A stretch of DNA of 44,033 bases, from IMG/VR virus record IMGVR_UViG_3300017697_000027, positions 1 through 44,033 of that record; one strand, 5' to 3'. Of the stretch, positions 4,208 to 43,211 are shown one piece after another. How positions within the stretch are numbered: the first letter of the stretch is position 1; each line of letters begins with the position of its first letter. A model generated the notes under the pieces. It had not been told where the DNA came from. It made no database searches and saw only the letters and a list, made by a program, of their open reading frames with translations. This stretch comes from a virus. Both the position numbers and the translations under genes were made by a program.

Positions 4208-4212
4208 AATAC

Positions 4213-4673: not shown

Positions 4674-4679
4674 TTGCCT

Positions 4680-4687: not shown

Positions 4688-4706
4688 ATCATAACTACTC
4701 TTAACA

Positions 4707-4714
4707 TATTTATT
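4707..4714 (-). promoter_or_regulatory. Probable late promoter box (AATAAATA) for gp4
   Basis: The box matches seven of eight late-consensus bases on the minus strand. It is placed so that the transcript would start about 28 bases before the gp4 ATG. It overlaps the initial transcribed region of the divergent plus-strand promoter. Confidence 0.4.
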
Positions 4715-4725
4715 AGGATAAACGA

Positions 4726-5487: not shown

Positions 5488-6260
5488 TGCCACACTTTTT
5501 TAAAAATTTCCCATTAACAGGTTATAAGTTTAAAAAAAATTCTGATACAACTACATTAATTGTAGATATATTTCGTCATGTAAGCGCTTATAATACAGTT
5601 GATGACGCAAATGCATACCAATATTATACAATTTTAGAAGGTGAAAGACCTGATCAAGTTTCTCAAAAATTATATGATAGCGATCAATATTTTTGGACTT
5701 TCTTTTTACTAAATGAGCATCTTGCCGAAGGCCATAACTATTGGCCAAAAGAATATAACGTTTTGCAGGATTATATTTCTTTAAAATATCCTGATAAAGT
5801 TATTTCCTCTATGCGCAATTCTGGTTATAACTCCGGAGAAAATCATTTATTATTAGATGTTTTTGAAGTTGGCGAAACTGTTCTTGGTGATGTGACTGGA
5901 TCTACGGCAGTTATTAAAGAGATAGATAGTACAAGAAATTTAATGATTGTTACTGATGTAGATGGAACTTTTGCTAGTGACACTACTTTAACTGGCCAAT
6001 CTAGTTCAGATACATTAGTAAATACAGATGTTTATAGATTTACTTTAGAAGAAGAGCATAATGCTCCTCATCATTATGAAAATTCTGATGGGCAAGAAAT
6101 TCCTAGAATTATATTTTCTGAAGATGAAACTTCTGTTTTTGAAGTAACTAATAGAGAATATGAAGAAAATAAAAATGACGAACGTATGTTTATTAGAGTA
6201 CTTCGTCGCGAGTTTATTGCCGATTTTGCTCAAGCATATAAAAAGTTAATTAATCAATGA
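5487..6260 (+). CDS. gp53: gp53 baseplate wedge protein with an inserted module
   Basis: This 257-residue protein has an N-terminal DIFRHVSAYN and a YYTILEGERPDQVSQKLYDS segment followed by QYFWTFFLLNEHLAEGHNYWP. These match T4 gp53 (196 aa), whose LysM-like core contacts gp7 and the hub and seals the wedge ring. Residues about 123-180 hold an insertion absent from T4, with the pattern FEVGETVLGDVTGSTAVIKEI and a VTDVDGTF strand. Similar small beta modules recur in the 2368-residue protein downstream. The C-terminus resumes the wedge pattern (RVLRREFIADFAQAYKKLI). It starts on a TAATG overlap with gp48 and ends on an ATGA overlap with gp27. Confidence 0.9.
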   Translation: MPHFFKNFPLTGYKFKKNSDTTTLIVDIFRHVSAYNTVDDANAYQYYTILEGERPDQVSQKLYDSDQYFWTFFLLNEHLAEGHNYWPKEYNVLQDYISLKYPDKVISSMRNSGYNSGENHLLLDVFEVGETVLGDVTGSTAVIKEIDSTRNLMIVTDVDGTFASDTTLTGQSSSDTLVNTDVYRFTLEEEHNAPHHYENSDGQEIPRIIFSEDETSVFEVTNREYEENKNDERMFIRVLRREFIADFAQAYKKLINQ

Positions 6261-10596: not shown

Positions 10597-10605
10597 GAGA
10601 AAAAG

Positions 10606-10899
10606 ATGGCAGCAGTTATAATTGCATCTTCTGCTTCAAGTGCAGATCCATGCGGTGCACCACCTAGAATCCCATCAGCCACTAGTTCGGATGTAGCCGC
10701 TTGTGGAGAATTAGTTGTAAGACAAGGTGATGCTTATTTGCCTCACGCATGTCCAAATTCTCCGCCTCATGGTGCTACGGCCGCTTCTGGTTCTGGTACT
10801 GTTAGTGTAAATGGAAAGCCTCTTCACAGAGCAGGTGATGCAATTTCTTGTGGAAGTGTTGGAGCAAATGGTTGTGCTGACGTAAACGTTGGTGGATAA
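10606..10899 (+). CDS. PAAR-repeat spike tip protein (gp5.4 type)
   Basis: This 97-residue protein is rich in Gly, Pro, Cys and His, with the PAAR sequence pattern: CGAPPRIPSAT near the start, VRQGDAYLPHACPNSPPHG, a TVSVNGKPLHRAGDAISCG repeat and a closing Gly-rich end. PAAR proteins form a sharp cone bound by a metal ion (His/Cys ligands) that caps the gp5 needle and pierces the outer membrane. Position directly after gp5 and 9 bases downstream fits T4 gp5.4. A strong GGAGAAAA Shine-Dalgarno precedes the ATG. Confidence 0.93.
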   Translation: MAAVIIASSASSADPCGAPPRIPSATSSDVAACGELVVRQGDAYLPHACPNSPPHGATAASGSGTVSVNGKPLHRAGDAISCGSVGANGCADVNVGG

Positions 10900-10901
10900 G
10901 G

Positions 10902-10909
10902 TATAAATA
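10902..10909 (+). promoter_or_regulatory. Late promoter box TATAAATA immediately before gp25
   Basis: This perfect late box has 5 bases between its end and the gp25 ATG. With T4 spacing the +1 is 10915, the A of ATG, so transcripts from it would be leaderless. The spacing is the same as at 4213-4220 on the other strand. Confidence 0.6.
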
Positions 10910-10914
10910 ATACT

Positions 10915-11358
10915 ATGAGTACAGAAATTCTATCAGATCAAAATTTAGCTAAAGTTTCAGCGAAAGTTGTAGCCCGCGCAAAGCCATACACTGATTTAGA
11001 TTTAAGATTTAAGGCGCATCCTAATTTTGGAGATGTTGTTCCATTAAGAGACATTGCAGCAATAAAAAATTCTATTAAATCTATATTATTAACAAGTAAA
11101 GGTGAAAGACCTTTCCAACCAAAATTTGGAACTAATATTACAAGCTATCTTTTTGAACAACCAGATCCAATTACACTTTCTTTATTGGAAGACGAAATTG
11201 TAAGAGCTGTGACAAAATATGAACCTAGAGTTTCTATAACCGAAGTTAATGTTGAAGATAGAACTGATGAAAATGGATTATTCATTTCTGTATCTGTTAT
11301 AGTATTAAACACTCAAGAAAATGTTGAAGTTGAATTATTTTTAGAGAGAACTCGATAA
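10915..11358 (+). CDS. gp25: gp25-like baseplate wedge protein
   Basis: This encodes 147 residues (T4 gp25 has 132). The core YTDLDLRFKAHPNFGDVV, the basic AAIKNSIKSILLTSKGERPFQPKFG stretch and the YEPRVSITEVNV strand are the hallmarks of the GpW/gp25 family. gp25 binds gp6 and gp53 at the core of the wedge and initiates sheath assembly. It ends flush against gp6 with no intergenic base, so the two are translationally coupled. A late box lies directly before the ATG. Confidence 0.95.
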   Translation: MSTEILSDQNLAKVSAKVVARAKPYTDLDLRFKAHPNFGDVVPLRDIAAIKNSIKSILLTSKGERPFQPKFGTNITSYLFEQPDPITLSLLEDEIVRAVTKYEPRVSITEVNVEDRTDENGLFISVSVIVLNTQENVEVELFLERTR

Positions 11359-13218
11359 ATGGCTACTAATATCAAAAATGTCACCGAATTAGATTTCGAT
11401 CAGATTAAAACTAATCTAAAAGTATTTCTAAGTTCACAAGAAAAATTTAATGATTATGATTTTGATGGTGCTGGTCTGAATGTTCTTCTTGACATTCTTG
11501 CATATAATACACAATACAATGCTTTATTAGCACATATGAATACCAATGAATCTTTCTTAGATTCAGCTCAAATTAGAGCCAATGTTGTTTCTCATGCAAA
11601 AAGTATGGGTTATGTTCCAACATCTAATACTGCAGCAAGAGCTTATGTAGATGTTACAGTTACGGGAAATGCTACTTCTCCAGCCACTTTACAAATTCCA
11701 AAAGGAACAACATTTTCAGGTCAACAGGGCGCAAATCAACTTTCATTTGTAACTAATAATTCTTTTGAAGCAGATAAAGATATTAATAATCAATATAAAC
11801 TTACTAATGTTGAATTATTAGAAGGAAAATTATCAACAGTTTCTTATAGAGTTGATAATGCAATTGAATTACAAAAATTCAAAGTCCCAGATTCAAATAT
11901 TGATGTATCAACTATGATTGTTAGAGTTCGCGAATCTTTAACTTCTTCAGAATATCAAACTTACACAAAATATACAAATATTAATGAAGCAACGTCTGAA
12001 TCAAGAATCTATTTTGTTCAAGAAAATTCGGATGGACAATACGAATTTCATTTTGGTGATGGTAAGTTAGGTGTATTACCATCAACCGGTCAAGTTGTAG
12101 ATTTAACTTATCTTTCTACAAATGGAGCTGATGGAAATGGTGCTAGTTCATTTACTATAAATGGAGCAATTGGTGGGTTTACTTCTATTGCTGTAGCTAA
12201 TAGCTCGGGATTTACTAGAACAGCAACTGGAACAAATAAAGAATCTATTGATTCTATTCGTTATAATGCTCCAAAACTATTTGCAGCTCAAAATAGAGCA
12301 GTTACTTCTTCAGATTATAGAGCTATTTTACTTTCAAATTATGAGTTTATTCAAGATATTTCAGTTTGGGGCGGTGAAGTAAACGATCCTCCAGTTTATG
12401 GTAAAGTATTTATTTCTATAAAACCAAAAGATGCAGATTTCTTGTCAACATCTACAAAAGCTGCTGTTGTTAGTTTTTTAAATACAAAAAATGTTGGCTC
12501 AATTACAACTGACATTCTTGATCCAGATTATACATTAATCACAATGGATGCCTTATTTAAGTATGATCCAAATTTGACGTCTAGAACTAAAACTCAATTA
12601 GAATCAGCAGTAAGAGAAACTATTTCAAACTATAACGATACTTATTTAGAAAAATTTGATGGAGTGCTTAGAAGCTCTCAGCTGCTTGCCGCTATTGATA
12701 ATACTGATCAAGGTATTTTGAATTCGGTTATAAGACTTAAAATGCATAAACACGTAGAACCTATTGTTGGAACTCCTACAAGTTATGATTTGCGATTTTC
12801 TTCTACAATTTATGAATCTGATTCAGATGAAGAAGTGATTTCTACAAATATATTTATTATTAATGGAATAGAATGTAAAGGTGGCGATTTACCAATTCCT
12901 GGCGATTTTCCTAATCGAGAAGTTGTGATTCGCTCAGCCTCTACAAATGAAATTCTTTATAGAGATGCTGGAATCATTTATCCTAGATCTGGTAGAATTG
13001 TAATGAATGAATTAACAGTAGAATCTTCTAATACAATTTTAGTATTTTGTTCTCCTGATTCAAATGATATTGCGCCAAAATTTAATCAATTAGTAAAAAT
13101 TGAATTAGATGAAACTCCTGGTGTTGAAGTCACTGGTGATGAAGATCTAATTGCAACACTTGGATCAACTGCCGCCTCCGAATATAAAACATTCCCAAGA
13201 CATGGTAATGGAATATAA
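11359..13218 (+). CDS. gp6: gp6 baseplate wedge protein
   Basis: This 619-residue protein is close to T4 gp6 (660). The N-terminus (LDFDQIKTNLKVFLSSQ followed by YDFDGAGLNVLLDILAYNT) and the central SSDYRAILLSNYEFIQDISVWGG-type region match the gp6/baseplate-J family that forms the inner ring of the baseplate and drives sheath contraction. The C-terminal third ends in a beta-rich dimerisation region. The gene begins on the base after the gp25 stop and is followed 3 bases later by the next wedge gene. I see no truncation or unusual insertion. Confidence 0.93.
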   Translation: MATNIKNVTELDFDQIKTNLKVFLSSQEKFNDYDFDGAGLNVLLDILAYNTQYNALLAHMNTNESFLDSAQIRANVVSHAKSMGYVPTSNTAARAYVDVTVTGNATSPATLQIPKGTTFSGQQGANQLSFVTNNSFEADKDINNQYKLTNVELLEGKLSTVSYRVDNAIELQKFKVPDSNIDVSTMIVRVRESLTSSEYQTYTKYTNINEATSESRIYFVQENSDGQYEFHFGDGKLGVLPSTGQVVDLTYLSTNGADGNGASSFTINGAIGGFTSIAVANSSGFTRTATGTNKESIDSIRYNAPKLFAAQNRAVTSSDYRAILLSNYEFIQDISVWGGEVNDPPVYGKVFISIKPKDADFLSTSTKAAVVSFLNTKNVGSITTDILDPDYTLITMDALFKYDPNLTSRTKTQLESAVRETISNYNDTYLEKFDGVLRSSQLLAAIDNTDQGILNSVIRLKMHKHVEPIVGTPTSYDLRFSSTIYESDSDEEVISTNIFIINGIECKGGDLPIPGDFPNREVVIRSASTNEILYRDAGIIYPRSGRIVMNELTVESSNTILVFCSPDSNDIAPKFNQLVKIELDETPGVEVTGDEDLIATLGSTAASEYKTFPRHGNGI

Positions 13219-26022: not shown

Positions 26023-26241
26023 ATGGCTTTAAAGGTCAGCGGTACAACAGTCATTGATAACAGTAAAAATATTGTTTCGACTACACCTCATGTACAAGGA
26101 ACAATTCTTACTGCTACTAATGTCTTTAAAGTGCCTTCTTACACTACTGCAGGGAGACCTGCACTGCCTTCAACTGGAGAAATTATTTTTGACACTGATG
26201 AAGGTACATTAAAAGTATATGATGGAGCAGAGTGGAAATAA
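26023..26241 (+). CDS. Small fibre adaptor protein, paralogue of the Cys-rich fibre N-terminus
   Basis: This encodes 72 residues: LKVSGTTVIDNSKNI, then YTTAGRPALPSTGEIIFDTD and EGTLKVYDGAEWK at the C-terminus. The same plan occurs at residues 1-68 of the next gene (INGTIVVDNSRNV ... YGTTANRPASGAGILYYDTD, EGSLVVNDGTEW), so the two share an attachment module; this version ends where the other continues. Proteins with the ..RP...GEI.FDTDEGTLK.YDG.EW motif are common fibre-associated modules in marine phages. It has its own late promoter and an AAGGAGAG Shine-Dalgarno. Confidence 0.75.
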   Translation: MALKVSGTTVIDNSKNIVSTTPHVQGTILTATNVFKVPSYTTAGRPALPSTGEIIFDTDEGTLKVYDGAEWK

Positions 26242-26286: not shown

Positions 26287-29200
26287 ATGTCATATAAAAT
26301 TAACGGTACTATTGTTGTTGACAACAGCCGCAATGTTTGCGCCTGTTGTGTAACAGCTTGTTGTATTACCGGTACAACAAAAGTATCCGTTCCATATGGT
26401 ACAACAGCGAACAGGCCGGCCTCAGGAGCCGGCATTTTATATTATGATACTGATGAAGGTTCGCTTGTTGTTAATGATGGGACGGAATGGGCCGCAGCTG
26501 GTGGATCAGCCGCGGACGGTGCAGTATTTGAACCAATATCGAATACTACAGACCCGCATGATGCGGTAGGCTTTGTAAATCTAGTCTCGAACTATGATTC
26601 GTGCAGTTGCGGCTGTTGTAATTGCACCGGCAATTGCATGACCGCAGCTTGGGGCTGTTCAATATCGGCTGGAGAAGATCCAGGTGCATTATATCCAAGA
26701 ACATTTACTTGCAGGGGCCAATATTGTTGTGGTAATTATAATGGCTATGGATTAGAGGTTTCGTGCTATGGCTGCACTAACTTTTTTATGTGTGGGCCAA
26801 CCGGCAACCTTGCTTTCGCGCAGTCAGGATGCTCCTTCAGGGGTAGCTATTTCTGTGAGTGTAATACCATGAACTTTCCACAATTACACTCGACGTTGAA
26901 CTCAAATCAGCAACAACCCAATCGAGTGTTCAATAACTTTGCTGTTTACAATGATGGAGCAACAGTTTATTGGTCATTTAAGTGTTCCATTTGCGGCAGC
27001 TTGAAATTTTGCCAATATTGTCCAGGGTGTCCATCTCAGAAACTGGGCGGTGTATATGTTGATGCTACTGGTAATCCTATTTTGCATCATTATGGAACTA
27101 GAAAACATACTTGTGTATGTTCATCTGCATGTCTAGCATACGGCACGCCTGATAATGGGTTTGCGATCCATCATCCAACTAATACGTATAAGGGCCCTGC
27201 CGCAAAAATTTCTATTGGTATGGCATGTGCTTGGAATGATGATATTGTATCACCACTGAGAGAACACATACTCGTTGCTTGTAGTAATACTAGAGGTCAA
27301 AACACACTAAAAGTATGCTCAGATTCGGTTGCGCATAATAATGTTTGTAGGTGTGGTTTCGAAGAAATGCAGGAAGAATTCTTCGGCCTGGCTAGAGCAA
27401 TGTGTAATGCACATTGTAACCGATGGGTTCCTACCGGATTTTGCTATAGTTGCTTTACCATGACCTGCCGATTGCATAATGGCATAATTCCTACTAATCC
27501 AGCAGATCATTTGACAAATACAGCTGCATACAGTCAGTGTCAGGGTTCTGCCGGCGGTAATGCATGTGTAATGCGGAGGCCCGGTCCAAGTTCAAATGGT
27601 TCAGATTATGCTATGTATGCTGTTAGAAATCCAATGGGATCAAGTTGCATTTCATGTTGTTGGACAGATTTATTTGGCAGCTGCGATGTTAAAAGTGTCT
27701 GGTTTGATCCATCATGTAGATATATGTATGCTCTTATTGGAGCACACGGTGGGGCCACCACCTTTCCGTGGGATGCTAACTGTCCCTCCTGCTGCTGGAG
27801 TAATGTCAACAGCTCCGGTACTATAACCTGCTATTGCACAAGATGCCTCTGCGCGAACCAATGCCATGTTCCTTCATTATATGTAATTGATACGTGCAAT
27901 GCTACAATTATTAGCCAAGGGCAATATCGTGGATGGAATAGAGATTATACTTTAAGACCTAGGGACGAATATACTCGATGCTTTAGAGGTGACTCTTACG
28001 ACTATCACAATATGTGTGTAAATTTTGCGCCCTGTTTTTCCAATCGGCTTCAAGCGGGGAAATGCTTTAGCCAATATGGTCCTTCAGCTGACAGATTTAA
28101 ATATCATGGCTTTAGATCTAAGAGAGATGCCGCTAACGTTATTACATCTTGTACTAATTGTAGAGCGTATCTAATTTCTATGGGCAATTGCTGTATGAGT
28201 TCCAGAGGAGATAATGAAGATATTCATGTATTTAATTTTAATACATGTATGTTTGATTGTACGTTGAATCTTGGTATAGGTTTACTTGGATGCGGGCCAG
28301 CTTTATGCTGGAATGGAACATTTAGACAGTGTAGCTCTGGTGCTATCACTAAGTATGATACTATTATTAAATACTTGGAATGCCTGACCGGTGTTGCTTA
28401 TACCGGAAACAATGGTGGAGCCTGCTGTGATGACTGGAGTTGTCAAGCTTGGCTGCGTTGTATTGGCGATGGTACTCTACCACGTTGCTTTGGTGTTGGT
28501 GGATGTGAAAACTGGCAGTGCCAGTGTCAGCATAGATGCGGGTCATTTAGAAGATGGCCAGTTGAAAATGCGTACGTCACGGATGCGGCAGCTAGACAAT
28601 ACTATATTAATCCAACAAACGATCATTTGATTGTGCCAATGTATTATGCTTCTGGACAACAACATTATGATACCTCATGCAATTCATTAGCTGCTGGTTG
28701 CATTGTATGGACTGGTATTGTATGTTATGACTTAAATAATAGATGTATTAGTAAAGTTCATAGTTTATTTAATGATAGACAAACTAGAGTAGATACTACA
28801 GTTTGCGGTGAATGCTGCGGAGCTAACTTTAATAGGTCTGTAAATGATTGTTGGGGTACTCAAAAACCTGGGCCAGGCGGATTTACGCCTCTTCCTACTC
28901 CATACGGCATGACTCTGTGCTGTTGCCATTGTGCATGTGAACCTTATGCTATGAGAATGGTGCCATATTCAATACCTAATGAATGTGCTTCAGATAGCGG
29001 GGTCGTATTTATGATGCTACCGTTCGCAGACAGCTCTACGCCAATGCTGTCAATATGTGCTTGCGGTCAGCTTGGATGTTGTCTTGCAGCTGGAGGTACA
29101 TGTGCAGGCGCATGTAGAGAGTTTGCATCGAATGATTATTTTCCTCCGTGCCAGTGCTGGAATCACAATATTGGTACTGATTTGGTACACCTAAAAGTTC

Positions 29201-29853
29201 CATTTGACAAACCATTGGATTGCTTAGGTTATCCTCATGATAATGATATGAAATTATTTATGGAAATGGTTCAAGGATGTGGCGCATTTAATTCTTGTCT
29301 ACATTGTCTGTGGGCAGATCCAAATACTGGTGTTCCATATTGTGATGCCGCATGTTGGTGTATGTGCGTAGGGGCATATTATGTAACCCGACAAAATCCT
29401 TGGAAATGGGGCTTCTGTTGTTTAGATTCAGCCATATGTGGTATGGGCTGTTGCGCAATTTGTGTAACTAAGTTATGTAATATTGGTAATATTTGTGGTT
29501 GTGGTAACACCTTCTGTGGATCAACGCCAACTTGCCATGATATGGTATGCTGGTATACTTGTTGTTCCCAAGGCGCTTCGTGCTATGAATGTATAATTAG
29601 AAATATTGATGATGCGTTCTTTGGTGACAATGCCGACCATTCCGGCCTAGCTTTCTCTGGAGAATCTAAAGCGATTAAGCCTCTAGAACTTATGGATGTG
29701 TGCGATTGTAGATCTACGTATTATGCGCATTGCGGCCAAAAGTCCGTTGGTGGTTATCTATCACCAACAAATGGTCATTGGGAATTACAGAAGAATTTCT
29801 ATAAAAGTCACTTCTGTACTGTTAATTATCCATGTCAGTGCTGCATACCATAA
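26287..29853 (+). CDS. Giant cysteine-rich tail fibre/adhesin
   Basis: This encodes 1188 residues with, by my count, about 131 cysteines (11%), spread along the whole chain in clusters such as CACCVTACC, CSCGCCNC, CCCHCAC and CCAICVTKLC. It is also rich in Gly, Asn, Trp, Tyr and His. Residues 1-70 are the attachment module shared with the 72-residue adaptor, so this is a virion fibre component rather than an enzyme. No signal peptide or membrane segment is seen. Cys pairs are often 2-3 residues apart, suiting metal sites or disulfide ladders. The rest has beta-propeller-like or WD/Kelch-like irregular strand patterns but no family I recognise. It is followed by a hairpin at 29869-29896. G+C seems higher than in neighbouring genes, partly because of Cys/Gly/Trp codons. 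Confidence 0.82.
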   Translation: MSYKINGTIVVDNSRNVCACCVTACCITGTTKVSVPYGTTANRPASGAGILYYDTDEGSLVVNDGTEWAAAGGSAADGAVFEPISNTTDPHDAVGFVNLVSNYDSCSCGCCNCTGNCMTAAWGCSISAGEDPGALYPRTFTCRGQYCCGNYNGYGLEVSCYGCTNFFMCGPTGNLAFAQSGCSFRGSYFCECNTMNFPQLHSTLNSNQQQPNRVFNNFAVYNDGATVYWSFKCSICGSLKFCQYCPGCPSQKLGGVYVDATGNPILHHYGTRKHTCVCSSACLAYGTPDNGFAIHHPTNTYKGPAAKISIGMACAWNDDIVSPLREHILVACSNTRGQNTLKVCSDSVAHNNVCRCGFEEMQEEFFGLARAMCNAHCNRWVPTGFCYSCFTMTCRLHNGIIPTNPADHLTNTAAYSQCQGSAGGNACVMRRPGPSSNGSDYAMYAVRNPMGSSCISCCWTDLFGSCDVKSVWFDPSCRYMYALIGAHGGATTFPWDANCPSCCWSNVNSSGTITCYCTRCLCANQCHVPSLYVIDTCNATIISQGQYRGWNRDYTLRPRDEYTRCFRGDSYDYHNMCVNFAPCFSNRLQAGKCFSQYGPSADRFKYHGFRSKRDAANVITSCTNCRAYLISMGNCCMSSRGDNEDIHVFNFNTCMFDCTLNLGIGLLGCGPALCWNGTFRQCSSGAITKYDTIIKYLECLTGVAYTGNNGGACCDDWSCQAWLRCIGDGTLPRCFGVGGCENWQCQCQHRCGSFRRWPVENAYVTDAAARQYYINPTNDHLIVPMYYASGQQHYDTSCNSLAAGCIVWTGIVCYDLNNRCISKVHSLFNDRQTRVDTTVCGECCGANFNRSVNDCWGTQKPGPGGFTPLPTPYGMTLCCCHCACEPYAMRMVPYSIPNECASDSGVVFMMLPFADSSTPMLSICACGQLGCCLAAGGTCAGACREFASNDYFPPCQCWNHNIGTDLVHLKVPFDKPLDCLGYPHDNDMKLFMEMVQGCGAFNSCLHCLWADPNTGVPYCDAACWCMCVGAYYVTRQNPWKWGFCCLDSAICGMGCCAICVTKLCNIGNICGCGNTFCGSTPTCHDMVCWYTCCSQGASCYECIIRNIDDAFFGDNADHSGLAFSGESKAIKPLELMDVCDCRSTYYAHCGQKSVGGYLSPTNGHWELQKNFYKSHFCTVNYPCQCCIP

Positions 29854-29972: not shown

Positions 29973-30905
29973 ATGAAAAAAGTTTTTATGCTAGACGGCG
30001 GGGCAGGCCGTATTATTGCCGCTATTCCAGCTCTTAGAAAATATGTAAAAGAAAACCCACAAGATGAGGTATCCATTATGATTGGTGGATGGGATCAACT
30101 TGTTTGGGGTCTTCAAGATTTACAAGATATTACGTATTCAATGGATACAAAAGGTGTTTTTGATAACATAGTTGCAAACGCGGATGAAATTATTTCTCCA
30201 GAACCATATCGCGTTCCAGGATATTTTAAGCAAGAATTATCTTTGGGTGAAGCATTTAACGTTCTTATTAATAATACACACGATCATTCAGATCTTGGTA
30301 TTCCTGAAATGATCTTAAATAAGAATGAAGAATTATCTGCAGCTAAAATGATTGCAGATGTAAAACGCCAACAACAAAAACAAAAGACAATTGTTATTCA
30401 ACCTTGGGGTCGTTCAGCAAATCGTGTTGATGATAAAACTATCTTTGATGACTCATCGAGATCTATGTCTCAAGAAACCTATTTAAAACTTATTAAAAAA
30501 TTATCAACAAAATATAATATGGTTTTATTTGGAGAAAAGCAATTTGAGCTACCTCAGGACACATTTACGTTTAAACCAGAAGCAGATTTACGGATGTGGG
30601 CAGCATTTGTAGATGCTGCAGATTATTTTCTTGGTTGTGATTCGTTAGGTCAACATATGGCTCGAGCATTCAATAAACCTGGAACCGTAATTGTTGGTTC
30701 TACATTTGCAATTAATACAACATATCCAAATTGGTTTAATATTATTGAACGCGAAGGACAAAAAAAGTACTCACCTATACGTATTTCTGGTTTAGACTCT
30801 CATTTGGCTGATAGATATAATGACCGCTGCATGGATTTCACAGATGAAGAAATCAATAAAATGTACGCCGATATTGTTAAAGACATTGAACAAAAGGTAA
30901 AATAA
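29973..30905 (+). CDS. GT9-type glycosyltransferase (heptosyltransferase-like)
   Basis: This encodes 310 residues. The start KKVFMLDGGAGRIIAAIPAL is the Gly-rich first loop of GT-B heptosyltransferases. The C-terminal half has TIVIQPWGRSANR and YNMVLFGEKQFELPQ, then AAFVDAADYFLGCDSLGQHMARAFNKPGTV (positions about 203-233, shown in part), the donor-binding D-S-x-x-x-H-x-A pattern of family GT9. Family members move heptose from ADP-heptose to LPS core or to adhesin proteins (TibC/AAH group). The acceptor cannot be read here. The neighbouring ADP-heptose operon supports heptose as donor. The carbamoyltransferase follows after 2 bases, so they form one operon. Confidence 0.75.
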   Translation: MKKVFMLDGGAGRIIAAIPALRKYVKENPQDEVSIMIGGWDQLVWGLQDLQDITYSMDTKGVFDNIVANADEIISPEPYRVPGYFKQELSLGEAFNVLINNTHDHSDLGIPEMILNKNEELSAAKMIADVKRQQQKQKTIVIQPWGRSANRVDDKTIFDDSSRSMSQETYLKLIKKLSTKYNMVLFGEKQFELPQDTFTFKPEADLRMWAAFVDAADYFLGCDSLGQHMARAFNKPGTVIVGSTFAINTTYPNWFNIIEREGQKKYSPIRISGLDSHLADRYNDRCMDFTDEEINKMYADIVKDIEQKVK

Positions 30906-30907: not shown

Positions 30908-32680
30908 ATGAAAATTTTAGCAGTTAATCCCGGACATAATGGTTCGGCCGCATATTTAGTTGATGGAAAAACCGAATTTTATATTGAAGAAGAAAGACTT
31001 TCTAGAGCAAAATACGATGGAAATCCTTTTAGAGGTATATTAGAAGCAATTCAAGGTGGTGTAGATTTTCTTGTGATTGGAGGTACTCACGACCAACCAA
31101 AATTAACTTGGACTGGCGAAGATGCTTTTACTGCTTTAGTTAGAAAGTTTAATTCTAATGTAAGAGTTATTTCATTATCACAAGCTCACCATTTAGGACA
31201 TGCTGCAGGCTCGTTCTTTAATTCTGGATTTAAAGACGCTGTAGCTCTAGTTATTGATGGGGCAGGATCTCGTCATGAGTTTCAAGCAGACGAAGATGGA
31301 CGATCTACGTATGGATTTGAAACTGAGTCTATTTTTGATTGTGATTCTGAAAAAAATGGAGAAGAAGAAGAAGTCGTAAAAGAAATATGGAAATCCTATG
31401 GCGGAAATTATGATGTAGTTCCATTAAAAACCGATAATATGAATATTGATAATTCAATGACTCTAGTAAAGATGTATGAAGGAGTTTCAGATTATCTGGG
31501 TTTTGGATATATTGAAGCTGGTAAAACGATGGGTCTTGCGCCGTACGGTAAAGAAGATGAAAATATTCCCGATTTAGTAATCAATGGTAGAGGTAATAGA
31601 AATGTCTTTATTCCGAATTACCCTGCTGGATCAACAATTGATGAGAGTAATAATCCATATTTAGCTAGAAATGAAGATCCAAAGTTATGGCATAAAGATC
31701 CAGAAAAAGTTACAGAGCAGGCAAAAAATCTTGCTTGGAAAATTCAAAAGCAAACACAAGAAGCAGTGGCTGATTTAATTGAAAAAGCTGTACAATTGAC
31801 AAATAAAACTAATATTGTTATTTCTGGTGGGTATGGGTTAAATTGCGTAGCAAATTATTATTATAAAAGTAGATTTCCAGATCTAAATATCTTTGTAGAT
31901 CCAATTTCTCATGACGGCGGAACAGCTCTTGGTCTAGCGAAACTCGCGTATTATAAATTGACTCAAGGGCAAATTCCAGATTCTTTAGAAACTTTATATC
32001 TTGGAACATTTAAATTATCAGAAATTGACGAGCAAACATTAGAAAATATTTCCAATGCTGAATTTGAAATAAAAAGAGAAGTATTAAATTCTGAAATTGC
32101 CCAAATGATTGCTGATGGTAATATCATTTCTATTTTTCAAGGAAGATCTGAAGCTGGGCCTAGAGCACTAGGTAATAGATCGATACTATATGATCCTCGC
32201 GATATCAATGGTAAAGACCATGTAAATACCGTAAAGGGTAGAGAATGGTTTAGGCCTTTTGCAGGATCTATGTTACAAGAAGATTTTGAAGAATGGTTCG
32301 AAACTCGTGGATTAACTGAAACACCGCATATGATGTACGCTATGGATTTTAAATTAGAAAAGCATGGCGAAGTTCCAGCTATTACTCATGTTGATGGGAC
32401 GTGTCGTATACAAACTGTAACAGAAGAGCAGAATGAAAATTATTATAACTTAATTAAAGCGTTTAAGGATATTACAGGTGTCCCTATTTTATTCAATACA
32501 AGTTTTAATTTAGCTGGAGAGCCTTTGGTTGAAACTTTAGATGATGCTCTTATGACAATTGCAAATTCTGATATTGAATACTTATATTTACCTGAGTGGT
32601 CGGTCTTAATTAAAGCTCCATTCAATTATAACCAACAGATTGAAGAATCTGAACAACAGATTGAAGAATCTGAAGAATAA
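30908..32680 (+). CDS. NodU/CmcH-type O-carbamoyltransferase
   Basis: This encodes 590 residues, the usual family size. The N-terminal ASKHA half begins MKILAVNPGHNGSAAYL with the metal-binding HHLGHAAGSFFNSGF (residues 94-108) and VALVIDGAGSRHEF. The C-terminal YrdC-like half shows the invariant GRSEAGPRALGNRSILYDPR (about 412-431) and FNTSFNLAGEPLV. These enzymes make carbamoyl-adenylate from carbamoyl phosphate and ATP and transfer the carbamoyl group to a sugar hydroxyl. In Pseudomonas aeruginosa a family member (WapO) carbamoylates inner-core heptose, which fits the heptose genes beside it. The C-terminus ends in a duplicated QQIEESE. It converges on the hldD gene with a shared terminator between. 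Confidence 0.92.
   Translation: MKILAVNPGHNGSAAYLVDGKTEFYIEEERLSRAKYDGNPFRGILEAIQGGVDFLVIGGTHDQPKLTWTGEDAFTALVRKFNSNVRVISLSQAHHLGHAAGSFFNSGFKDAVALVIDGAGSRHEFQADEDGRSTYGFETESIFDCDSEKNGEEEEVVKEIWKSYGGNYDVVPLKTDNMNIDNSMTLVKMYEGVSDYLGFGYIEAGKTMGLAPYGKEDENIPDLVINGRGNRNVFIPNYPAGSTIDESNNPYLARNEDPKLWHKDPEKVTEQAKNLAWKIQKQTQEAVADLIEKAVQLTNKTNIVISGGYGLNCVANYYYKSRFPDLNIFVDPISHDGGTALGLAKLAYYKLTQGQIPDSLETLYLGTFKLSEIDEQTLENISNAEFEIKREVLNSEIAQMIADGNIISIFQGRSEAGPRALGNRSILYDPRDINGKDHVNTVKGREWFRPFAGSMLQEDFEEWFETRGLTETPHMMYAMDFKLEKHGEVPAITHVDGTCRIQTVTEEQNENYYNLIKAFKDITGVPILFNTSFNLAGEPLVETLDDALMTIANSDIEYLYLPEWSVLIKAPFNYNQQIEESEQQIEESEE
32633..32674 (+). repeat. 21-base tandem duplication at the carbamoyltransferase C-terminus
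   Basis: Two perfect 21-base copies (32633-32653 and 32654-32674) encode QQIEESE twice. After the stop, seven further in-frame codons with a similar Glu-rich reading reach a second TAA at 32699-32701. The tail therefore seems to have grown and then been cut short. Confidence 0.8.
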
Positions 32681-32723: not shown

Positions 32724-32745
32724 GGGGCCATATGGCCCCTTTTTT
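32724..32745. terminator. Bidirectional terminator between convergent operons
   Basis: GGGGCCATATGGCCCC is a perfect palindrome followed by six T on the plus strand; on the minus strand a run of seven T (32712-32718) follows. It ends the carbamoyltransferase transcript. The minus-strand operon's last stop codon lies at 32744-32746, just before it. Confidence 0.9.
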
Positions 32746-33655
32746 ACATACTGTTACTTATATAATCCTGAACTCTTCTCATTCTTATTGGATTCCCAAT
32801 AGTTGTAAGTTTTTCTGTATTAGCTTGAGTAAATTCTTGATAATGATCTTTTAAATGATTCGGAAAAGGTATTGTTTCGATTTCAGCTCCGACTTTACGA
32901 GCAATCATTTGAGCAACATCCATAAATGATATTGCGTCTCCTGTACCAGCATTAAAGATACCAGAAACCTTTCTATTTAGCATTTCAATTTTTAGAAGTG
33001 CAATATCTTCAGCACAAACAAAATCGCGTCTAAAGTTTTCAGATCCTTCAAATACCTTTATTTTGCCTGTTTCTCTTGCTTGTTTTGAAAATTGAGTAAT
33101 AGGTGATGCTTGACCATCTTTATGATCTTCACCTTGCCCATAAACATTAAAGTATCTCCATCCTTGTATAATATATGGAGAATTTTGATACCACTCTGTA
33201 TTCACTAATTTTTCGATTTTTCGGTCAAATAACATTTTAGAATATGCGTACATATTCATTGGATCTAATGGGCCATTTTCTGTAAAATGTAATGTTCCGC
33301 CATATACTGAAGCTGATGAAGCATAAGAAAATGGAATTTTATGTTCAATAGCTTTTGCTAAAAGTTTATCAGAAAAGAAATAGTTAGAATCCATTACTTT
33401 TTTACCATCCCATTCTGTTGTAGATGAAATGGCGCCTTCATGATAAATAGCAGTTACTTTATCCCATAGATTTTCAGCATGTTCAAAAAATGTATCTTTA
33501 TCAAAGTATTCTTCGAATTCGCAATCTACTAAATTTTTATATTTTCTTCCATCAGTTAAATCATCAACGACAAAAATATTTTTTTTGCCTCTTTTGTTTA
33601 AATTACGAATAATGTTTGATCCTATAAAGCCGAATCCGCCAGTGACTAAAATCAT
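32744..33655 (-). CDS. hldD: ADP-glyceromanno-heptose 6-epimerase
   Basis: This 303-residue extended SDR protein compares with about 310 for bacterial HldD (RfaD). It has the Rossmann motif GGFGFIG (6-12), FVVDDLTDGRKYKNL, the EGAISSTTEWDGKKVMDSN segment characteristic of HldD, SSASVYG (113-119), the YAYSK pair Y136/K140, and RYFNVYG. It epimerises C6 of ADP-D-glycero-D-manno-heptose to the L,D form, the last step before transfer to LPS. It is the last gene of a five-gene operon and overlaps gmhB by four bases (ATGA). All catalytic residues I can place are present. Confidence 0.93.
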   Translation of the reverse strand: MILVTGGFGFIGSNIIRNLNKRGKKNIFVVDDLTDGRKYKNLVDCEFEEYFDKDTFFEHAENLWDKVTAIYHEGAISSTTEWDGKKVMDSNYFFSDKLLAKAIEHKIPFSYASSASVYGGTLHFTENGPLDPMNMYAYSKMLFDRKIEKLVNTEWYQNSPYIIQGWRYFNVYGQGEDHKDGQASPITQFSKQARETGKIKVFEGSENFRRDFVCAEDIALLKIEMLNRKVSGIFNAGTGDAISFMDVAQMIARKVGAEIETIPFPNHLKDHYQEFTQANTEKLTTIGNPIRMRRVQDYISNSM

Positions 33656-34398
33656 TTAAGTGCCTTAGCAAAATCTAATAATGAATTGAATGTTGATGTT
33701 TTCTTACGAATTTTTTCCGCTGAGAATTTTTTAAGTGCTTGTTCTGTTTCTTCACCATGACCTGTACGAACAAGAATTGGTTTTGCACCAATTTTATATG
33801 CAGCTTTCAAATCAGTTATTTTATCACCAACATAAAATCCGCCTTGCTTGAATCTGATCTTGTTTTCAAAAATTTCTTCTTCAGCGCGGTGAAACATTCC
33901 AAGATTTGGTTTTGCGTAATAATCTTCTTTTAAAGATGTTTCTGAATAAAACAATCCATCAATTGAAAAGATTCCTGCTTTGCCAAATACTTCCATCATA
34001 TGTTGATTTACAGCTTCTACTTGTTCATGAGTTTGCAATCCTTTAATAATTCCACCTTGATTTGTTAGAATCACGACCTTATAGCCTTTTAATCGAATTA
34101 TGCGAATTGCTTCTAAAGATCCAGGAATTGGCTCCCATTGCTGTGGGCTTGTGATATATTCGCCGCGGTCAATATTAATTACGCCATCTCTATCAAGTCC
34201 AATAATTGCCTTTGGAAATACTTTAGGCCATGATTTTTGCATTTCCATAATTTTAGCTTCTTCGGCACTCATTCCCATCTGAGGCTGATTAGGAGTCGAA
34301 GATGTATATTGTCCCGAAGAATAACTATAATTTTGCTGTGGTTGTTGTGCTGTTGTTGATTGTGGATCTATATCAGCAACATGCTTAAATCTACTCAT
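33652..34398 (-). CDS. gmhB: D-glycero-D-manno-heptose-1,7-bisphosphate 7-phosphatase-like, lacking zinc ligands
   Basis: This encodes 248 residues. Residues 1-60 are a Gln/Ser/Tyr-rich extension not found in standard GmhB (about 190 aa). The HAD phosphatase core follows: GLDRDGVINIDRGEY (nucleophile D69, acid D71), TNQGGIIKG (motif II), and KPNLGM with GGFYVGDKITDLKAAYKIG (motifs III/IV). It should remove the 7-phosphate after the kinase step. The zinc loop of E. coli GmhB (C-x-H ... C-x-C) is replaced by SETSLKEDYYAKPN with no cysteine, so metal binding there is lost or the specificity may differ. A histidinol-phosphatase-like HAD is the alternative, but the neighbours favour heptose. ATGA overlaps link it to both neighbours. 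Confidence 0.85.
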   Translation of the reverse strand: MSRFKHVADIDPQSTTAQQPQQNYSYSSGQYTSSTPNQPQMGMSAEEAKIMEMQKSWPKVFPKAIIGLDRDGVINIDRGEYITSPQQWEPIPGSLEAIRIIRLKGYKVVILTNQGGIIKGLQTHEQVEAVNQHMMEVFGKAGIFSIDGLFYSETSLKEDYYAKPNLGMFHRAEEEIFENKIRFKQGGFYVGDKITDLKAAYKIGAKPILVRTGHGEETEQALKKFSAEKIRKKTSTFNSLLDFAKALK

Positions 34399-34751
34399 TT
34401 TTGAGAATCACCCTTCATAACTCGATAATTGTCTTCTACTGAATCTGCTGTTGATACTTCGATTAGCGTTCCTGTCATAATACAATAAACTTTATGAGGA
34501 AGTAGAGGTGGATTGTGCCAAGTATCTCCAGCATTTAATTCTTTTTTATGAAGACTAGCGTCTTTAGTATCAATCCATTCTACCACAAATTTTCCATCCA
34601 TAACATACCATGTTTCATCTTTTTCACGATGAAAATGCATAGAAAACTGAGCACCTTCATTAAACTTTAGAAATTTACCACAATACTTATCATTAGTAGC
34701 CCAGATAAGTTCATGTCCCCATCCCTTTTCAACAAATCCGTCAAGTCTCAT
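34395..34751 (-). CDS. Cupin-domain sugar-phosphate-type protein
   Basis: This encodes 118 residues from the ATG at 34751, which has AGAGG 8 bases upstream; an in-frame TTG 15 bases earlier is less likely. It is a single cupin barrel: FSMHFHREKDETWYVMDG gives H39, H41 and E46, and AGDTWHNPPLLPHKV supplies the second-motif His. The WGHELIWATNDKYCGKFL start resembles cupin halves of type II mannose-6-phosphate isomerases and related sugar enzymes. It overlaps the adenylyltransferase gene by 11 bases and gmhB by 4, so it is made together with the heptose enzymes. Its reaction is unknown; isomerase, epimerase or binding roles are all possible. Confidence 0.8.
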   Translation of the reverse strand: MRLDGFVEKGWGHELIWATNDKYCGKFLKFNEGAQFSMHFHREKDETWYVMDGKFVVEWIDTKDASLHKKELNAGDTWHNPPLLPHKVYCIMTGTLIEVSTADSVEDNYRVMKGDSQK

Positions 34752-35142
34752 TGTGTATCCTCTCAATTATTTTAGTAGTCGAATAACCATTTTTATATGG
34801 TAATATATATGTAGTTTTTGCAATATCAAATCCAACAATTTTTCTGGGGTCCGAGTAGTCCCCACCTTTAGTTAGAATATCAGGTTCTATTTCTTTAATC
34901 AATTGATATGGAGTATCTTCATAGAAAATAATCACTTCATCTACGCACATTAACGATTCAAGCATAAATTTACGATCATTTTCGTTATTTACTGGCCTAG
35001 ATTCTCCCTTTAGTCTTTTTACAGATTCGTCAGAATTTAAACCAACAATAAGATAGTCTCCAAACGATTTAGATTCTTCTAAATACTCTATATGGCCTCG
35101 ATGTAAAATATCAAAGCAGCCATTAGTAAATACTATTTTCAT
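34741..35142 (-). CDS. hldC: D-glycero-beta-D-manno-heptose 1-phosphate adenylyltransferase
   Basis: This 133-residue protein has the cytidylyltransferase-like fold: VFTNGCFDILHRGHIEYLEE with the GxFDxxHxGH nucleotide-binding motif (residues 8-17), VGLNSDESVKRLKGESRPVN, and ILTKGGDYSDPRKIVG. This matches the C-terminal half of HldE (RfaE), which activates heptose-1-phosphate to ADP-heptose. In E. coli kinase and adenylyltransferase are fused; here they are two genes overlapping by four bases (ATGA), as in split HldA/HldC systems. The typical metal and substrate residues I can place are intact. Confidence 0.92.
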   Translation of the reverse strand: MKIVFTNGCFDILHRGHIEYLEESKSFGDYLIVGLNSDESVKRLKGESRPVNNENDRKFMLESLMCVDEVIIFYEDTPYQLIKEIEPDILTKGGDYSDPRKIVGFDIAKTTYILPYKNGYSTTKIIERIHNET

Positions 35143-35993
35143 AAAATATCCTTTGGATGTATTACATATGTTCCTTGCTTTGAAATAGCTTTTGCGGCTC
35201 CTTTATTAGCTAAAATAAGAGATTCCTCTATATCATACCCGTTATCTAGTCCATAAGCTAATATAGCGCCAAATGTATCTCCAGCACCAGTTACGTCATA
35301 AACGCTTTTAGCTTGAGTTGGAATATGCACTTGACCTTCTTCAGATACCCATAATACTCCATCAGCGGCAAGAGTAATAATTAAATGATCTACTTCTAAT
35401 TTTTCTCTTACTTTGATTGCTTTATACTTAATACCTTTTATGCAATCGGATGTTCCAGCATAATCTTCAAATTCTTTTCTATTTGGTTTCAAAATCCATG
35501 AATACTTGTAATTATCTAAGCTTACTTTTGGATCAACTATTACTCTCTGGTTTTTATGTCTTAAATAGTCAATTAAAGGTTTTGGTTTTTTTAAAGACCC
35601 TTTGTTATAATCAGATAAAAAGAAAATATCATTCTTTTTAAATTTATGACTAAACAATTTATTATTTAAATCGTTATTATCCATATATTCTTCGTTATCA
35701 ATACGAGTGATATAATGATTACCAGATAAAATACGAATTTTTACTGGCATTCTTTTTGTAGAAACTAAATTAGAAGTATCTGAAAAATGCGAAAGATATT
35801 CATCTTGAACTAGGCCAAATAAGTTTACTTTTTTGGTAAGAGATCTTATATTAGCATAAACATTTGATGCACCGCCAAGTGCAATATGTTTTTCTAATAA
35901 TTCTACAATTGGAACTGGAGCTTCTGGAGATAAACGTGTTGTTTTTCCGTGCCAATATTCGTCAATAATTATGTCTCCAAGTACATTTATCAT
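35139..35993 (-). CDS. hldA: D-glycero-beta-D-manno-heptose 7-phosphate kinase
   Basis: This 284-residue PfkB-family kinase corresponds to the N-terminal half of HldE. The start VLGDIIIDEYWHGKTTRLSP followed by EAPVPIVEL is the RfaE-type signature. GGASNVYANI (40-49), KPNRKEFEDYAG and the PfkB motif DVTGAGDTFGA (233-243, containing the catalytic Asp) follow. It phosphorylates C1 of heptose-7-phosphate. It is the first gene of the minus-strand operon, with AGGAAG upstream of the ATG and a late promoter box at 36046-36039. It is shorter than typical N-terminal HldE halves (about 315), but the core motifs are complete. Confidence 0.92.
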   Translation of the reverse strand: MINVLGDIIIDEYWHGKTTRLSPEAPVPIVELLEKHIALGGASNVYANIRSLTKKVNLFGLVQDEYLSHFSDTSNLVSTKRMPVKIRILSGNHYITRIDNEEYMDNNDLNNKLFSHKFKKNDIFFLSDYNKGSLKKPKPLIDYLRHKNQRVIVDPKVSLDNYKYSWILKPNRKEFEDYAGTSDCIKGIKYKAIKVREKLEVDHLIITLAADGVLWVSEEGQVHIPTQAKSVYDVTGAGDTFGAILAYGLDNGYDIEESLILANKGAAKAISKQGTYVIHPKDIL

Positions 35994-40310: not shown

Positions 40311-43211
40311 ATGGCAACTTACGAAAAAGACTTTATTGTAAAAAATGGCCTTCAAATTGGAGGCTCAATTGTACCAGACGATGACGAAACATATGACTTG
40401 GGTACGCCTACGAAAAAATTTAGAGACCTATATCTAAGTGCTGGTACAATTTATCTTGGGAACCTAGTTCTTAAAGATAATGGTGATGGTACAATGGCAA
40501 CATATGAATCAGATGGTGTTACTGCGGCGTCTGTTCAAGCTAACGCTGTTGATATTGACTACGATAATAGCACATCTGGATTAACTGCAACCAATGTTAA
40601 AGCAGCTCTTGATGAAATCATTTCTAATGACGAAACAGTAGTAAAAAATCTTTTAAATGGTAACTTAGACGGAAACATTATTCCTTCTGCAGATGTTACT
40701 TATGACCTTGGTTCTCCAACCAAGCAGTGGAAAGATATTTATGTAGGTCCAGGTTCTTTGTATCTAAATGGTACTAAAGTACTTGAAGATGATGCGGGAA
40801 CTCTTAAATTCCATGCGGATCCATCTCAATCTCTATCTATTGAAACATCTACAACTGGTTCAACATCAATTGCAGGTGGCGCAGCTGTTAATATTACAAC
40901 TTCGGCTGCATCCGCAGATATTGCTCTTACACCAACAGGCGATATTGAGTTAAACGCAGATGTAGTAATTGGTGCAGGGCAAGCTCTTACAACATCAAAT
41001 GGTTCTGCTCTTACAGTAAATGCTAACCTAAACTTAGGTTCAAATACTATTACTGCTGCAGAATTTGTTGGCGACTTAGATGGTAACATTACAGCCTCAA
41101 GTGGTACAACAACTCTTAATAACCTTGTTATTGATGGTAACCTAACTGTTAGTGGTACAACAACTGTAGTTAATACAGAAACTATTAACTTAGCAGATAA
41201 TATTATTACACTAAATAATAATGCCACAGGCGCGCCAAGTGAAAATGCCGGTATTGAAGTAGAACGTGGTGATAGTTCTAATGTTACTTTACGTTGGAAC
41301 GAAGCTAATGATGAATGGGAAGCTACACTCGATGGCTTAAACTATAAAACCATTCTATTAGATGGCGACACCGCGGGTACTGCAACTACATTAGAAACAG
41401 CTCGTAATATTGGTGGTGTTTCCTTTGATGGTTCTGCTGATATTGATCTTCCAGGTGTTAGTACAACTGGTAACCAAAACACATCTGGTAATGCAGCAAC
41501 AGCAACACTGGCAGCTGCAGCTACTGCTCTTGAAACGGCAAGAACAATTGCTTTAGCGGGTGACGTATCTGGCTCGGCATCATTTGATGGTACAGGTAAT
41601 GTTTCAATTACAACAACTATTGCTGATGATTCTCATAATCATACAATTGCAAATGTTGATGGTCTACGAACTGCACTAGATGCAGGATTTGTTTCTGCTT
41701 CAGCAAGTAATGATACAATCACATTTACAACTGCTGGTGGTACAACATCTTCAGTAAGTATCTCAGACGCTGTTCTTTCAACAGAAGCTGTACAAGATGT
41801 TGTTGGCGGAATGGTTGCAAGCAATAGCGAAACTGGTATTACTGTAACATATGATGACACAAATGGTAAACTAGACTTTGCTGTTAGCACACTAAACCAA
41901 GATACATCTGGTAATGCAGCTACTGCAACTGCTCTTGAAACGGCAAGAACAATCGCTCTAAGCGGTGATGTTTCTGGCTCAGTATCATTTGATGGTACAG
42001 CTAATGCTACAATTACAGCAACTATTGCTGATGATTCGCATAATCATACTGTTGCAAATGTTGATGGTCTACAAACTGCTTTAGACGCTAAAGCTCCTTT
42101 AGCTAGCCCAGCTCTAACTGGTACTCCAACTGCTCCAACTGCGACCGCGGGAACAAATACCACACAAGTTGCTACAACAGCATTTGTTGGTACTGCAGTT
42201 GCTAATTTAGTTGATTCATCTCCAGGTACGTTAGATACACTGAATGAACTTGCTGCGGCATTAGGTGACGATCCTAACTTTGCAACATCTGTTTCTACAT
42301 CAATTGGCACTAAGCTCGACGCATCCCATGATATGTCATTAACATTAAATGGTGATGTATCCGGTTCGGCTACATTTACTAATATGGCAAATGCTACATT
42401 AACAGTAACTGTCGCTGATGATTCACATAATCATACAGTAGCTAATGTTGATGGATTAGCAACATGTCTATCAGGTAAAGCTCCAACAAATGGTAGTTAT
42501 GCAAATAACTGGCAAGCAAATTGTCTTTGTGCTGATGTTTGTGTTAAGTCACCAGTTGTTTGTGCTGACTCTTGGCTTACAGTAGGTGGTAGATGTATCT
42601 GTAACTCAGCAGGTGAGTATGGTTCTATCTCTGTTGTAGGCGGTGACAATATCTGGCCTGGATATAGTATTGAAAACCATACTGTCTTTATGGCAAATGG
42701 TGCTGATATGGGGCTTTATAATGACAGCACAAATGAATGGTATTTAAAAGGTACATGTAATGGTGATGTGTGTCTATTTCATAATGGCTCTAGTAGAATC
42801 CAAACTACATCATATGGTGGCTATACAGCAGGATGCCATTGTGCACCTAACTGTATGAAAGCATGCATAATGTGTGGTGTTTCAGCTGTTAGAACAGCTA
42901 CAGTTTGTGCAACTGATATTAACTCTACATCAGATATGAGATGTAAAACTAATATTCAAACTATCGATAGTGCTGCATCTAAAGTTGGCCAATTGCGTGG
43001 TGTTAACTTTGACTGGAAAGATTCTGGCAAAAAATCTATGGGTGTAATTGCTCAAGAAGTTGAAGAAGTTTTACCAGAAGTTGTTGTTACAGACGATGAA
43101 GGTATGAAAAAAGTTAACTATCAAGCAATGGTTGGTGTACTAATTGAAGCTGTAAAAGACTTACAGGCAAGATTAGATGAGCACGAATCAAAATGTTCAT
43201 GTGAAAAGTAG
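40311..43211 (+). CDS. Tail fibre with Cys-rich tip and S74 chaperone
   Basis: This encodes 966 residues. The N-terminus DFIVKNGLQIGGSIVPDDD with YDLGTPTKKFRDLYLSAGTI (repeated as YDLGSPTKQWKDIYVGPGSL) is a known marine fibre module. Middle parts hold NTETINLADNIITLNNNATG with ENAGIEVERG, and three copies of a SGDVSGS.SFDG..N.....ADDSHNHT.ANVDGL unit. The first 700 or so residues have no cysteine. Residues about 715-890 contain most of 18 Cys (NCLCADVC, GRCIC, GCHCAPNCMKACIMC). Residues about 870-966 are a Peptidase_S74 domain (TSDMRCKTNI, MGVIAQEVEEVLPEVV, ending CSCEK) with the Ser-Asp cleavage pair intact. It is a probable receptor-binding distal fibre. Confidence 0.85.
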   Translation: MATYEKDFIVKNGLQIGGSIVPDDDETYDLGTPTKKFRDLYLSAGTIYLGNLVLKDNGDGTMATYESDGVTAASVQANAVDIDYDNSTSGLTATNVKAALDEIISNDETVVKNLLNGNLDGNIIPSADVTYDLGSPTKQWKDIYVGPGSLYLNGTKVLEDDAGTLKFHADPSQSLSIETSTTGSTSIAGGAAVNITTSAASADIALTPTGDIELNADVVIGAGQALTTSNGSALTVNANLNLGSNTITAAEFVGDLDGNITASSGTTTLNNLVIDGNLTVSGTTTVVNTETINLADNIITLNNNATGAPSENAGIEVERGDSSNVTLRWNEANDEWEATLDGLNYKTILLDGDTAGTATTLETARNIGGVSFDGSADIDLPGVSTTGNQNTSGNAATATLAAAATALETARTIALAGDVSGSASFDGTGNVSITTTIADDSHNHTIANVDGLRTALDAGFVSASASNDTITFTTAGGTTSSVSISDAVLSTEAVQDVVGGMVASNSETGITVTYDDTNGKLDFAVSTLNQDTSGNAATATALETARTIALSGDVSGSVSFDGTANATITATIADDSHNHTVANVDGLQTALDAKAPLASPALTGTPTAPTATAGTNTTQVATTAFVGTAVANLVDSSPGTLDTLNELAAALGDDPNFATSVSTSIGTKLDASHDMSLTLNGDVSGSATFTNMANATLTVTVADDSHNHTVANVDGLATCLSGKAPTNGSYANNWQANCLCADVCVKSPVVCADSWLTVGGRCICNSAGEYGSISVVGGDNIWPGYSIENHTVFMANGADMGLYNDSTNEWYLKGTCNGDVCLFHNGSSRIQTTSYGGYTAGCHCAPNCMKACIMCGVSAVRTATVCATDINSTSDMRCKTNIQTIDSAASKVGQLRGVNFDWKDSGKKSMGVIAQEVEEVLPEVVVTDDEGMKKVNYQAMVGVLIEAVKDLQARLDEHESKCSCEK

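Follow-up and report, generated by a model that had tools for sequence, protein, structure and literature searches.

Sugar on the thiol of cysteine (Cys) is known from the SunS-type S-glycosyltransferases of glycocins, which belong to family GT2 and modify one or two Cys of short peptides. Heptose on protein is known from TibC and AAH, which act on the adhesins TibA and AIDA-I. TibC takes ADP-heptose as donor and modifies its adhesin in the cytoplasm at many sites; it targets Ser and has an N-terminal beta-barrel, a four-Cys iron finger and an Asp-110 that was proposed as the base activating the acceptor and whose replacement by Ala abolished or largely reduced activity (PMC4358343). The heptosyltransferases of lipopolysaccharide (LPS), WaaC, WaaF and WaaQ of family GT9, use Kdo or heptose on lipid A as acceptor. 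In mycobacteriophages, phage glycosyltransferases are suggested to modify virion proteins (PMC11256854); neither Cys enrichment nor a heptose or carbamoyl module was found described for them. How does a viral gene cluster with an extremely Cys-rich fibre compare with these systems? The cluster lies in IMG/VR record IMGVR_UViG_3300017697_000027, whose 44,033 nucleotides are called the window here. At 26287-29853 on the plus strand it encodes a Cys-rich fibre and putative receptor-binding protein, P0001, and after it, on the same strand, a 310-residue glycosyltransferase (GT) of predicted GT9 heptosyltransferase type (29973-30905, phrog_8954) and a 590-residue carbamoyltransferase (CT) of the NodU/TobZ type (30908-32680). 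We are inclined to regard P0001 as the substrate of a phage-encoded modification, in which surface Cys would be S-heptosylated and, in a marine and freshwater branch, capped with carbamoyl. With somewhat more reserve, we also favour the wider view that this represents an undescribed class of virion modification, in which receptor-binding proteins of unrelated folds, enriched in Cys, would carry dense S-linked heptose or carbamoyl-heptose. A GT9 enzyme whose base Asp is exchanged for Arg would install the sugar, and a phage pathway would supply the ADP-heptose where the host makes none.

P0001 is one intact open reading frame (ORF) of 1188 residues, 131 of them Cys (11.0%). Successive stretches of 100 residues hold 5, 16, 8, 10, 8, 12, 10, 10, 13, 10, 21 and 8 Cys, and therefore Cys spans the entire length of the protein. 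By comparison, the window's remaining structural or uncharacterised proteins together contain 24 Cys over 9790 residues (0.25%). An earlier note on this DNA had called such a content along the full length extraordinary, and these counts bear it out. Shuffling the nucleotides of the ORF gives 45 Cys on average and 63 at most, and the two alternative frames contain 43 and 125 stops; thus the excess comes neither from base composition nor from a wrong frame. The Cys clusters that the note had also pointed to exceed expectation only a little in P0001 taken alone (CC 16 against 14.3 expected, CxC 19 against 12.8), and the excess becomes clear over 79 related Cys-rich proteins (CC 676 against 456, CxC 569 against 411). 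Residues 1-70 form an attachment module in common with the neighbouring 72-residue protein (26023-26241, plus strand), which is free of Cys and has a weak, sub-threshold match to Mtd_N; the sharing of this module, noticed before, is confirmed by 46% identity over residues 1-69 (E value 2.8e-12). Because of this module and its location in the baseplate and fibre gene cluster, P0001 is very probably a tail protein. The whole protein has no match among GenBank phages at 1e-5, where only residues 33-68 align, with E values above 0.5, and its exact peptides have no match in IMG/VR; as the note had supposed, no described family with this make-up was found.

Homologues of P0001 surfaced only via neighbouring genes. 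In a survey, 80 IMG/VR loci were retrieved with the CT alone, and ORFs of at least 230 residues with at least 3.5% Cys were counted as Cys-rich. The GT accompanies the CT in 77 of these loci, unlike what is known of NodU, TobZ and GdmN, and a Cys-rich ORF is present in 67; the usual order is Cys-rich protein or proteins, GT, CT and ADP-heptose genes. Among the 13 loci without such an ORF, eight are truncated, either inside the module or at most about 1.5 kb before the GT (L095, L148, L149, L150, L152, L155, L163 and L165). L144 and its near-twin L143 were considered as exceptions and rejected, since Cys-decorated YadA-like fibres are encoded in the 259-kb record of L144 at a distance of about 10-35 kb upstream of the GT, beyond the stretch first read. 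In a contrast set of 80 loci retrieved via the upstream gene VrlC, only three ORFs exceed the threshold, and judging from their sequences these resemble radical-SAM/SPASM-type enzymes. Clustered at 80% identity, the GT sequences form 17 groups, 14 of which include a Cys-rich ORF. The closest homologue of P0001 that was found is a Cys-rich fragment of 337 residues (43% identity) in L127, a locus of reversed order in which the GT and CT come before the Cys-rich ORFs (4115-7934). In the cyanophage loci L172-L178, some modules add 2-oxoglutarate-Fe(II) oxygenases, a tryptophan halogenase and a second carbamoyltransferase, for which further modification of the sugar or the protein is possible.

The linkage is seen also from the opposite direction. 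Fibres with the Cys-type S74 motif SDCRCKxNI were used as probe, giving 21 records to be compared with 50 records of ordinary S74 fibres. The GT is found in 16 of the former and in one of the latter; Fisher's test, with relatedness ignored, gives p = 9.9e-11, which is a guide only, because some of the records are related to one another and 12 of the 21 had already come up in the CT survey. The one GT-positive record with an ordinary S74 motif is the one that has a strongly Cys-rich ORF (37 Cys in 287 residues), and four of the five Cys-type records without the GT are contigs of 5.4-7.1 kb. The same arrangement exists in GenBank, in the cultured cyanophages P-SSM2, S-SSM7, S-CAM1, S-CAM3 and Sf-FS3 and in single-cell marine viruses, and the Cys-rich proteins beside the GT there contain 7.5-11.6% Cys. 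In S-SSM7 the Cys-rich proteins are SSSM7_114-116, and P-SSM2 has PSSM2_304 and PSSM2_306. When one of these proteins was used in a tblastn search, ten records were hit, nine of which are in the GT match list; the tenth, MH319732, is a single-cell virus contig, and another contig of the same virus, MH319735, carries the GT. Each of the nine GT loci on GTDB contigs has Cys-rich ORFs a short way upstream; L360 and L363 seem to be a single virus counted twice. Cys-rich tail proteins and the GT are associated in three collections.

It is to be noted that the CT does not always seem to accompany this pair; examples are the DISCRIMINATING cases. In the podovirus SBP1 of Vibrio and in HJ05, a phage of Aeromonas, a distant GT adjoins a Cys-enriched protein of the tail region (41 Cys in 925 residues for gp062 of SBP1 and 23 in 559 for HJ05), and the annotation of the 24.7 kb around the GT shows neither a CT nor ADP-heptose genes. 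Two other GT-bearing Vibrio phages, D505 and K479, were retrieved as a prediction, and their adjacent tail proteins have 41 and 39 Cys. This amounts to 2.3-2.4%, whereas the other long proteins used for comparison have 0.3-0.5%. Thirty of the 41 Cys of SBP1 can be aligned to homologues from Vibrio phages outside the GT match list, and none of the 30 is conserved; the residues found in their place are for the most part polar, chiefly E, K, S, D, V, A and Q, and the homologous domains of these GT-undetected phages have three Cys where SBP1 has 43 aligned Cys cells. Since Vibrio and Aeromonas phages keep the GT and a Cys-enriched protein with no CT seen, it is the GT rather than the CT that tracks Cys, and for one protein family the sequences point to the GT as the partner of Cys acquisition. 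This bears on the possibility of direct S-carbamoylation, in which the CT would cap Cys thiols as HypF does on HypE and heptose would be used elsewhere. Carbamoylation of a thiol is known in the wider Kae1/YrdC group, to which HypF belongs, and the CT does adjoin the fibre genes; nevertheless, no Vibrio or Aeromonas phage is among the organisms matched by the CT search, and Pelagibacter phage Mosig carries a related carbamoyltransferase while the 46 kb of it that were read show no Cys-rich fibre, so that this explanation is judged very unlikely. Vibrio and Aeromonas generally make ADP-heptose for their LPS. Heptose and Kdo are both absent from the LPS reported for the marine Synechococcus strains WH8102 and CC9311 (PMC4515613), and WH8102 is the listed host of Sf-FS3, one of the phages with the module.

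The genes in question have been read in other ways. The co-occurring LPS genes of P-SSM2, S-SM2 and S-SSM7 were left open in function, possibly as 'stuffer DNA' (PMC3037559), such genes were read as changing the host surface (PMC2984593), and those of S-SSM6a as a secondary metabolite cluster (PMC7824862). In our search of the literature, whose coverage was partial, no work linking these genes to Cys-rich fibres was found. These published readings would favour mere coincidence, with LPS-remodelling or secondary-metabolite cargo genes gathering beside fibre genes; a two-way statistical linkage to Cys content specifically, together with the Vibrio homologue comparison, makes coincidence hardly credible.

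The Cys-rich proteins span unrelated families: Gly_rich_2 proteins, YadA-like repeats, S74 fibres, and non-repetitive proteins like P0001 without a family match. In 427 YadA-like repeats, Cys rises to 9-21% where the sequence is hypervariable and almost vanishes in the conserved core. Because unrelated Cys-rich tail proteins adjoin the same gene for attaching the sugar in many phages, the Cys probably serve to anchor a sugar coat and not to store metal, and Cys would be an acceptor that any tail protein can gain at exposed positions. Among Cys-rich homologues, Cys is substituted mostly by T, S, N, G and A. Against fibre-like controls, Cys is enriched 38-fold, while Ser (0.89) and Thr (0.67) are not enriched; W, H and M rise 2 to 3.3-fold (His and Met 2 to 2.4-fold), and these smaller ratios may reflect the choice of controls, which were selected as G/S/T/N-rich proteins.

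What kind of enzyme is the GT? The window protein gives weak heptosyltransferase profile matches, and Glyco_transf_9 (PF01075) is detected in 18 of 28 members of its family (best 4e-8), the window GT itself being without this match. A profile search against PDB sequences found nothing, while a fold search gave matches: its predicted structure, with a predicted local distance difference test score (pLDDT) of 87.7, has a GT-B fold like WaaC and WaaF, and its best PDB matches are E. coli WaaF, WaaC and TibC (Foldseek 1psw, E value 1.3e-8; 2h1h; 3tov). The phage enzyme thus resembles TibC and AAH in its GT9-like fold, and the LPS heptosyltransferases in fold and motif layout as well as in the company of ADP-heptose genes. 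Unlike TibC, it has 310 residues with two Cys, and neither the iron finger nor the beta-barrel was found. A further difference concerns the N-terminal GD of GT9 enzymes, whose Asp is the catalytic base. In place of the GD of WaaC, WaaF and WaaQ the phage GT has GR: Arg13 of GGAGR is invariant in all 28 aligned members, the GTs of Vibrio and Aeromonas phages carry GGLGR with the same Arg, and in a profile alignment the phage GAGR is positioned over the MGD of WaaC. By our reasoning, a thiol would depend less on a base to act as acceptor, and its thiolate form could be stabilised by Arg. A GT acting on Ser, Thr or another target, with Cys enrichment as a separate, co-selected role, would agree with the fact that those protein heptosyltransferase relatives for which a description was found all act on Ser (PMC4358343). 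It would leave the 38-fold rise of Cys beside unenriched Ser and Thr without a reason, and the Asp that serves a hydroxyl acceptor is the very residue replaced by Arg; this explanation is considered quite unlikely.

The proposed modification would proceed in three steps. In the first, a HldE-type kinase and adenylyltransferase, GmhB and HldD would make ADP-L-glycero-D-manno-heptose in the infected cell. Four enzymes of this pathway are assigned by profile matches at 32744-35993, all on the minus strand: HldD, the ADP-glyceromanno-heptose 6-epimerase (32744-33655; TIGR02197, 306.8 bits with a cut-off of 274.6), a GmhB-like heptose-1,7-bisphosphate 7-phosphatase (33652-34398; 128 bits, below the curated cut-off), a heptose-1-phosphate adenylyltransferase of HldE C-terminal type (34741-35142; 175 bits, cut-off 181.5) and a heptose-7-phosphate kinase of HldE N-terminal type (35139-35993; 237 bits, cut-off 345). 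Only HldD exceeds its NCBIfam equivalog cut-off, and the activities of the enzymes are presumed from these matches. The cassette also has a cupin-domain protein, recognised by its domain match (34395-34766, minus strand), and no GmhA isomerase was recognised among the profiled genes of the window, which is a fragment of a larger genome. In the second step, the GT9-type enzyme would transfer heptose onto exposed Cys thiols of the fibre, producing dense S-linked heptose; a protein acceptor and a thiol linkage are suggested because Cys tracks the GT gene and because an invariant Arg replaces the base Asp of WaaC and TibC. Such a linkage would be shared with SunS-type enzymes, from which the phage system would differ in its GT9-type enzyme and in the number of Cys per protein, which ranges from tens to over 100. 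In the third step, the TobZ-like CT may place carbamoyl on the heptose, by analogy with the 7-O-carbamoyl-heptose in the LPS core of Pseudomonas (PMC7168646). The CT aligns with TobZ (3ven, 1.2e-49) like a member of the NodU/TobZ/GdmN group, with Kae1-like and YrdC-like motifs, and keeps the conserved blocks HHLxHAA, DGxG, QGRxExGPRALGxRS, REWxRPFA and NTSFNxxGEP. The outcome would be a hydrophilic receptor-binding protein whose thiols are capped and which is coated with sugar, and candidate benefits are carbohydrate-based adhesion and protection from thiol oxidation or proteolysis.

Several points weigh against S-heptosylation of the Cys. The template modelling scores (TM-scores) of the GT model are modest, about 0.5-0.64, and the Arg substitution could alter the function of the enzyme. 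The structure prediction of P0001 that the earlier note had proposed was run with ten sequences and gave a pLDDT of 27, so that no fold is claimed. L131 has the GT, CT and ADP-heptose genes, yet no Cys-rich ORF in its 47.7-kb record, and two short contigs, L139 and L147, also lack one. Conversely, the 148-kb record L305, the fifth of the Cys-type S74 records without the GT, encodes on its minus strand a Cys-rich S74 fibre (41 Cys in 592 residues, 10200-11975) and a neighbour (33 in 364, 9116-10207), and no GT9 homologue, Glyco_transf_9 (PF01075) or Glycos_transf_2 (PF00535) was detected in it; it may have a different modifying enzyme or a different use of Cys. The next gene of L305 is patatin-like by eye. 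The comparison with Cys-poor homologues from GT-negative phages comes from one Vibrio tail-protein family. Moreover, enzyme activity, heptose on the Cys sulfur, carbamoyl on the heptose, the presence of P0001 in virions and the benefit are things that we infer. Finally, in Cys-rich homologues no residue, or hardly any, is better conserved than Cys, with 57% conservation at 25-40% identity, an upper estimate because alignment scoring favours Cys. About 20 Cys positions are near-invariant, and a near-invariant segment, NVCACCVT(A/S)CCIT, lies at residues 16-28 of P0001. When Cys positions were compared in homologues, as the note had advised, a subset was thus found to be nearly fixed.

These near-invariant positions would fit disulfides or metal as well. 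Cys might stay reduced in the cytoplasm and, once lysis has exposed them to oxic water, form disulfides within and between chains; the sugar genes would then act elsewhere, and the over-representation of CC and CxC would suit such a protein. Disulfides leave unexplained why Cys enrichment tracks one GT over unrelated folds, and they sit badly with Cys that are interchangeable with other residues at the variable positions of YadA-like repeats and with the loss of all 30 aligned Vibrio Cys in phages where the GT was undetected; we consider them unlikely. The leading idea of the earlier note was loading with iron or zinc in the manner of a Ferrojan horse. The very high Cys content, the rise of His and Met and the near-invariant subset would be compatible with metal. 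There is, however, no fixed metal-site spacing, Cys avoids the YadA-like core, the alignable Vibrio Cys are all other residues elsewhere, and metal does not predict a linkage to ADP-heptose and carbamoyl genes or a Cys-rich character that spans unrelated folds and follows the neighbouring heptosyltransferase. Metal loading is therefore held to be highly improbable and loses its leading place.

If heptose is indeed carried by the Cys of these fibres, several suspected 'LPS' genes of T4-like cyanophages such as P-SSM2 and S-SSM7 would belong to a virion-modification cassette, and heptose on cysteine by a GT9-type enzyme would be added to the known chemistry of protein glycosylation. Phage adhesins would have a chemical layer invisible to sequence-based prediction of host range, and the GT would be a possible enzyme for putting sugar on protein cysteine.

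As for the rest of the window, its genes mark it as a fragment of a T4-like marine myovirus. A VrlC-like protein of 2368 residues matches those of the Pelagibacter phages HTVC008M and Mosig and of cyanophages at 30-35%, and gp5 OB, T4_baseplate, PAAR and S74 proteins are also present. The S74-type fibre at 40311-43211 on the plus strand (966 residues) is a probable second substrate, with 18 Cys, all within residues 719-964; it ends in an S74 chaperone-type domain in which DMRCKTNI replaces the usual DxRLKTNI. A much commoner use of Cys is seen in the 97-residue PAAR-motif protein at 10606-10899, whose five Cys likely belong to a metal-capped spike tip.

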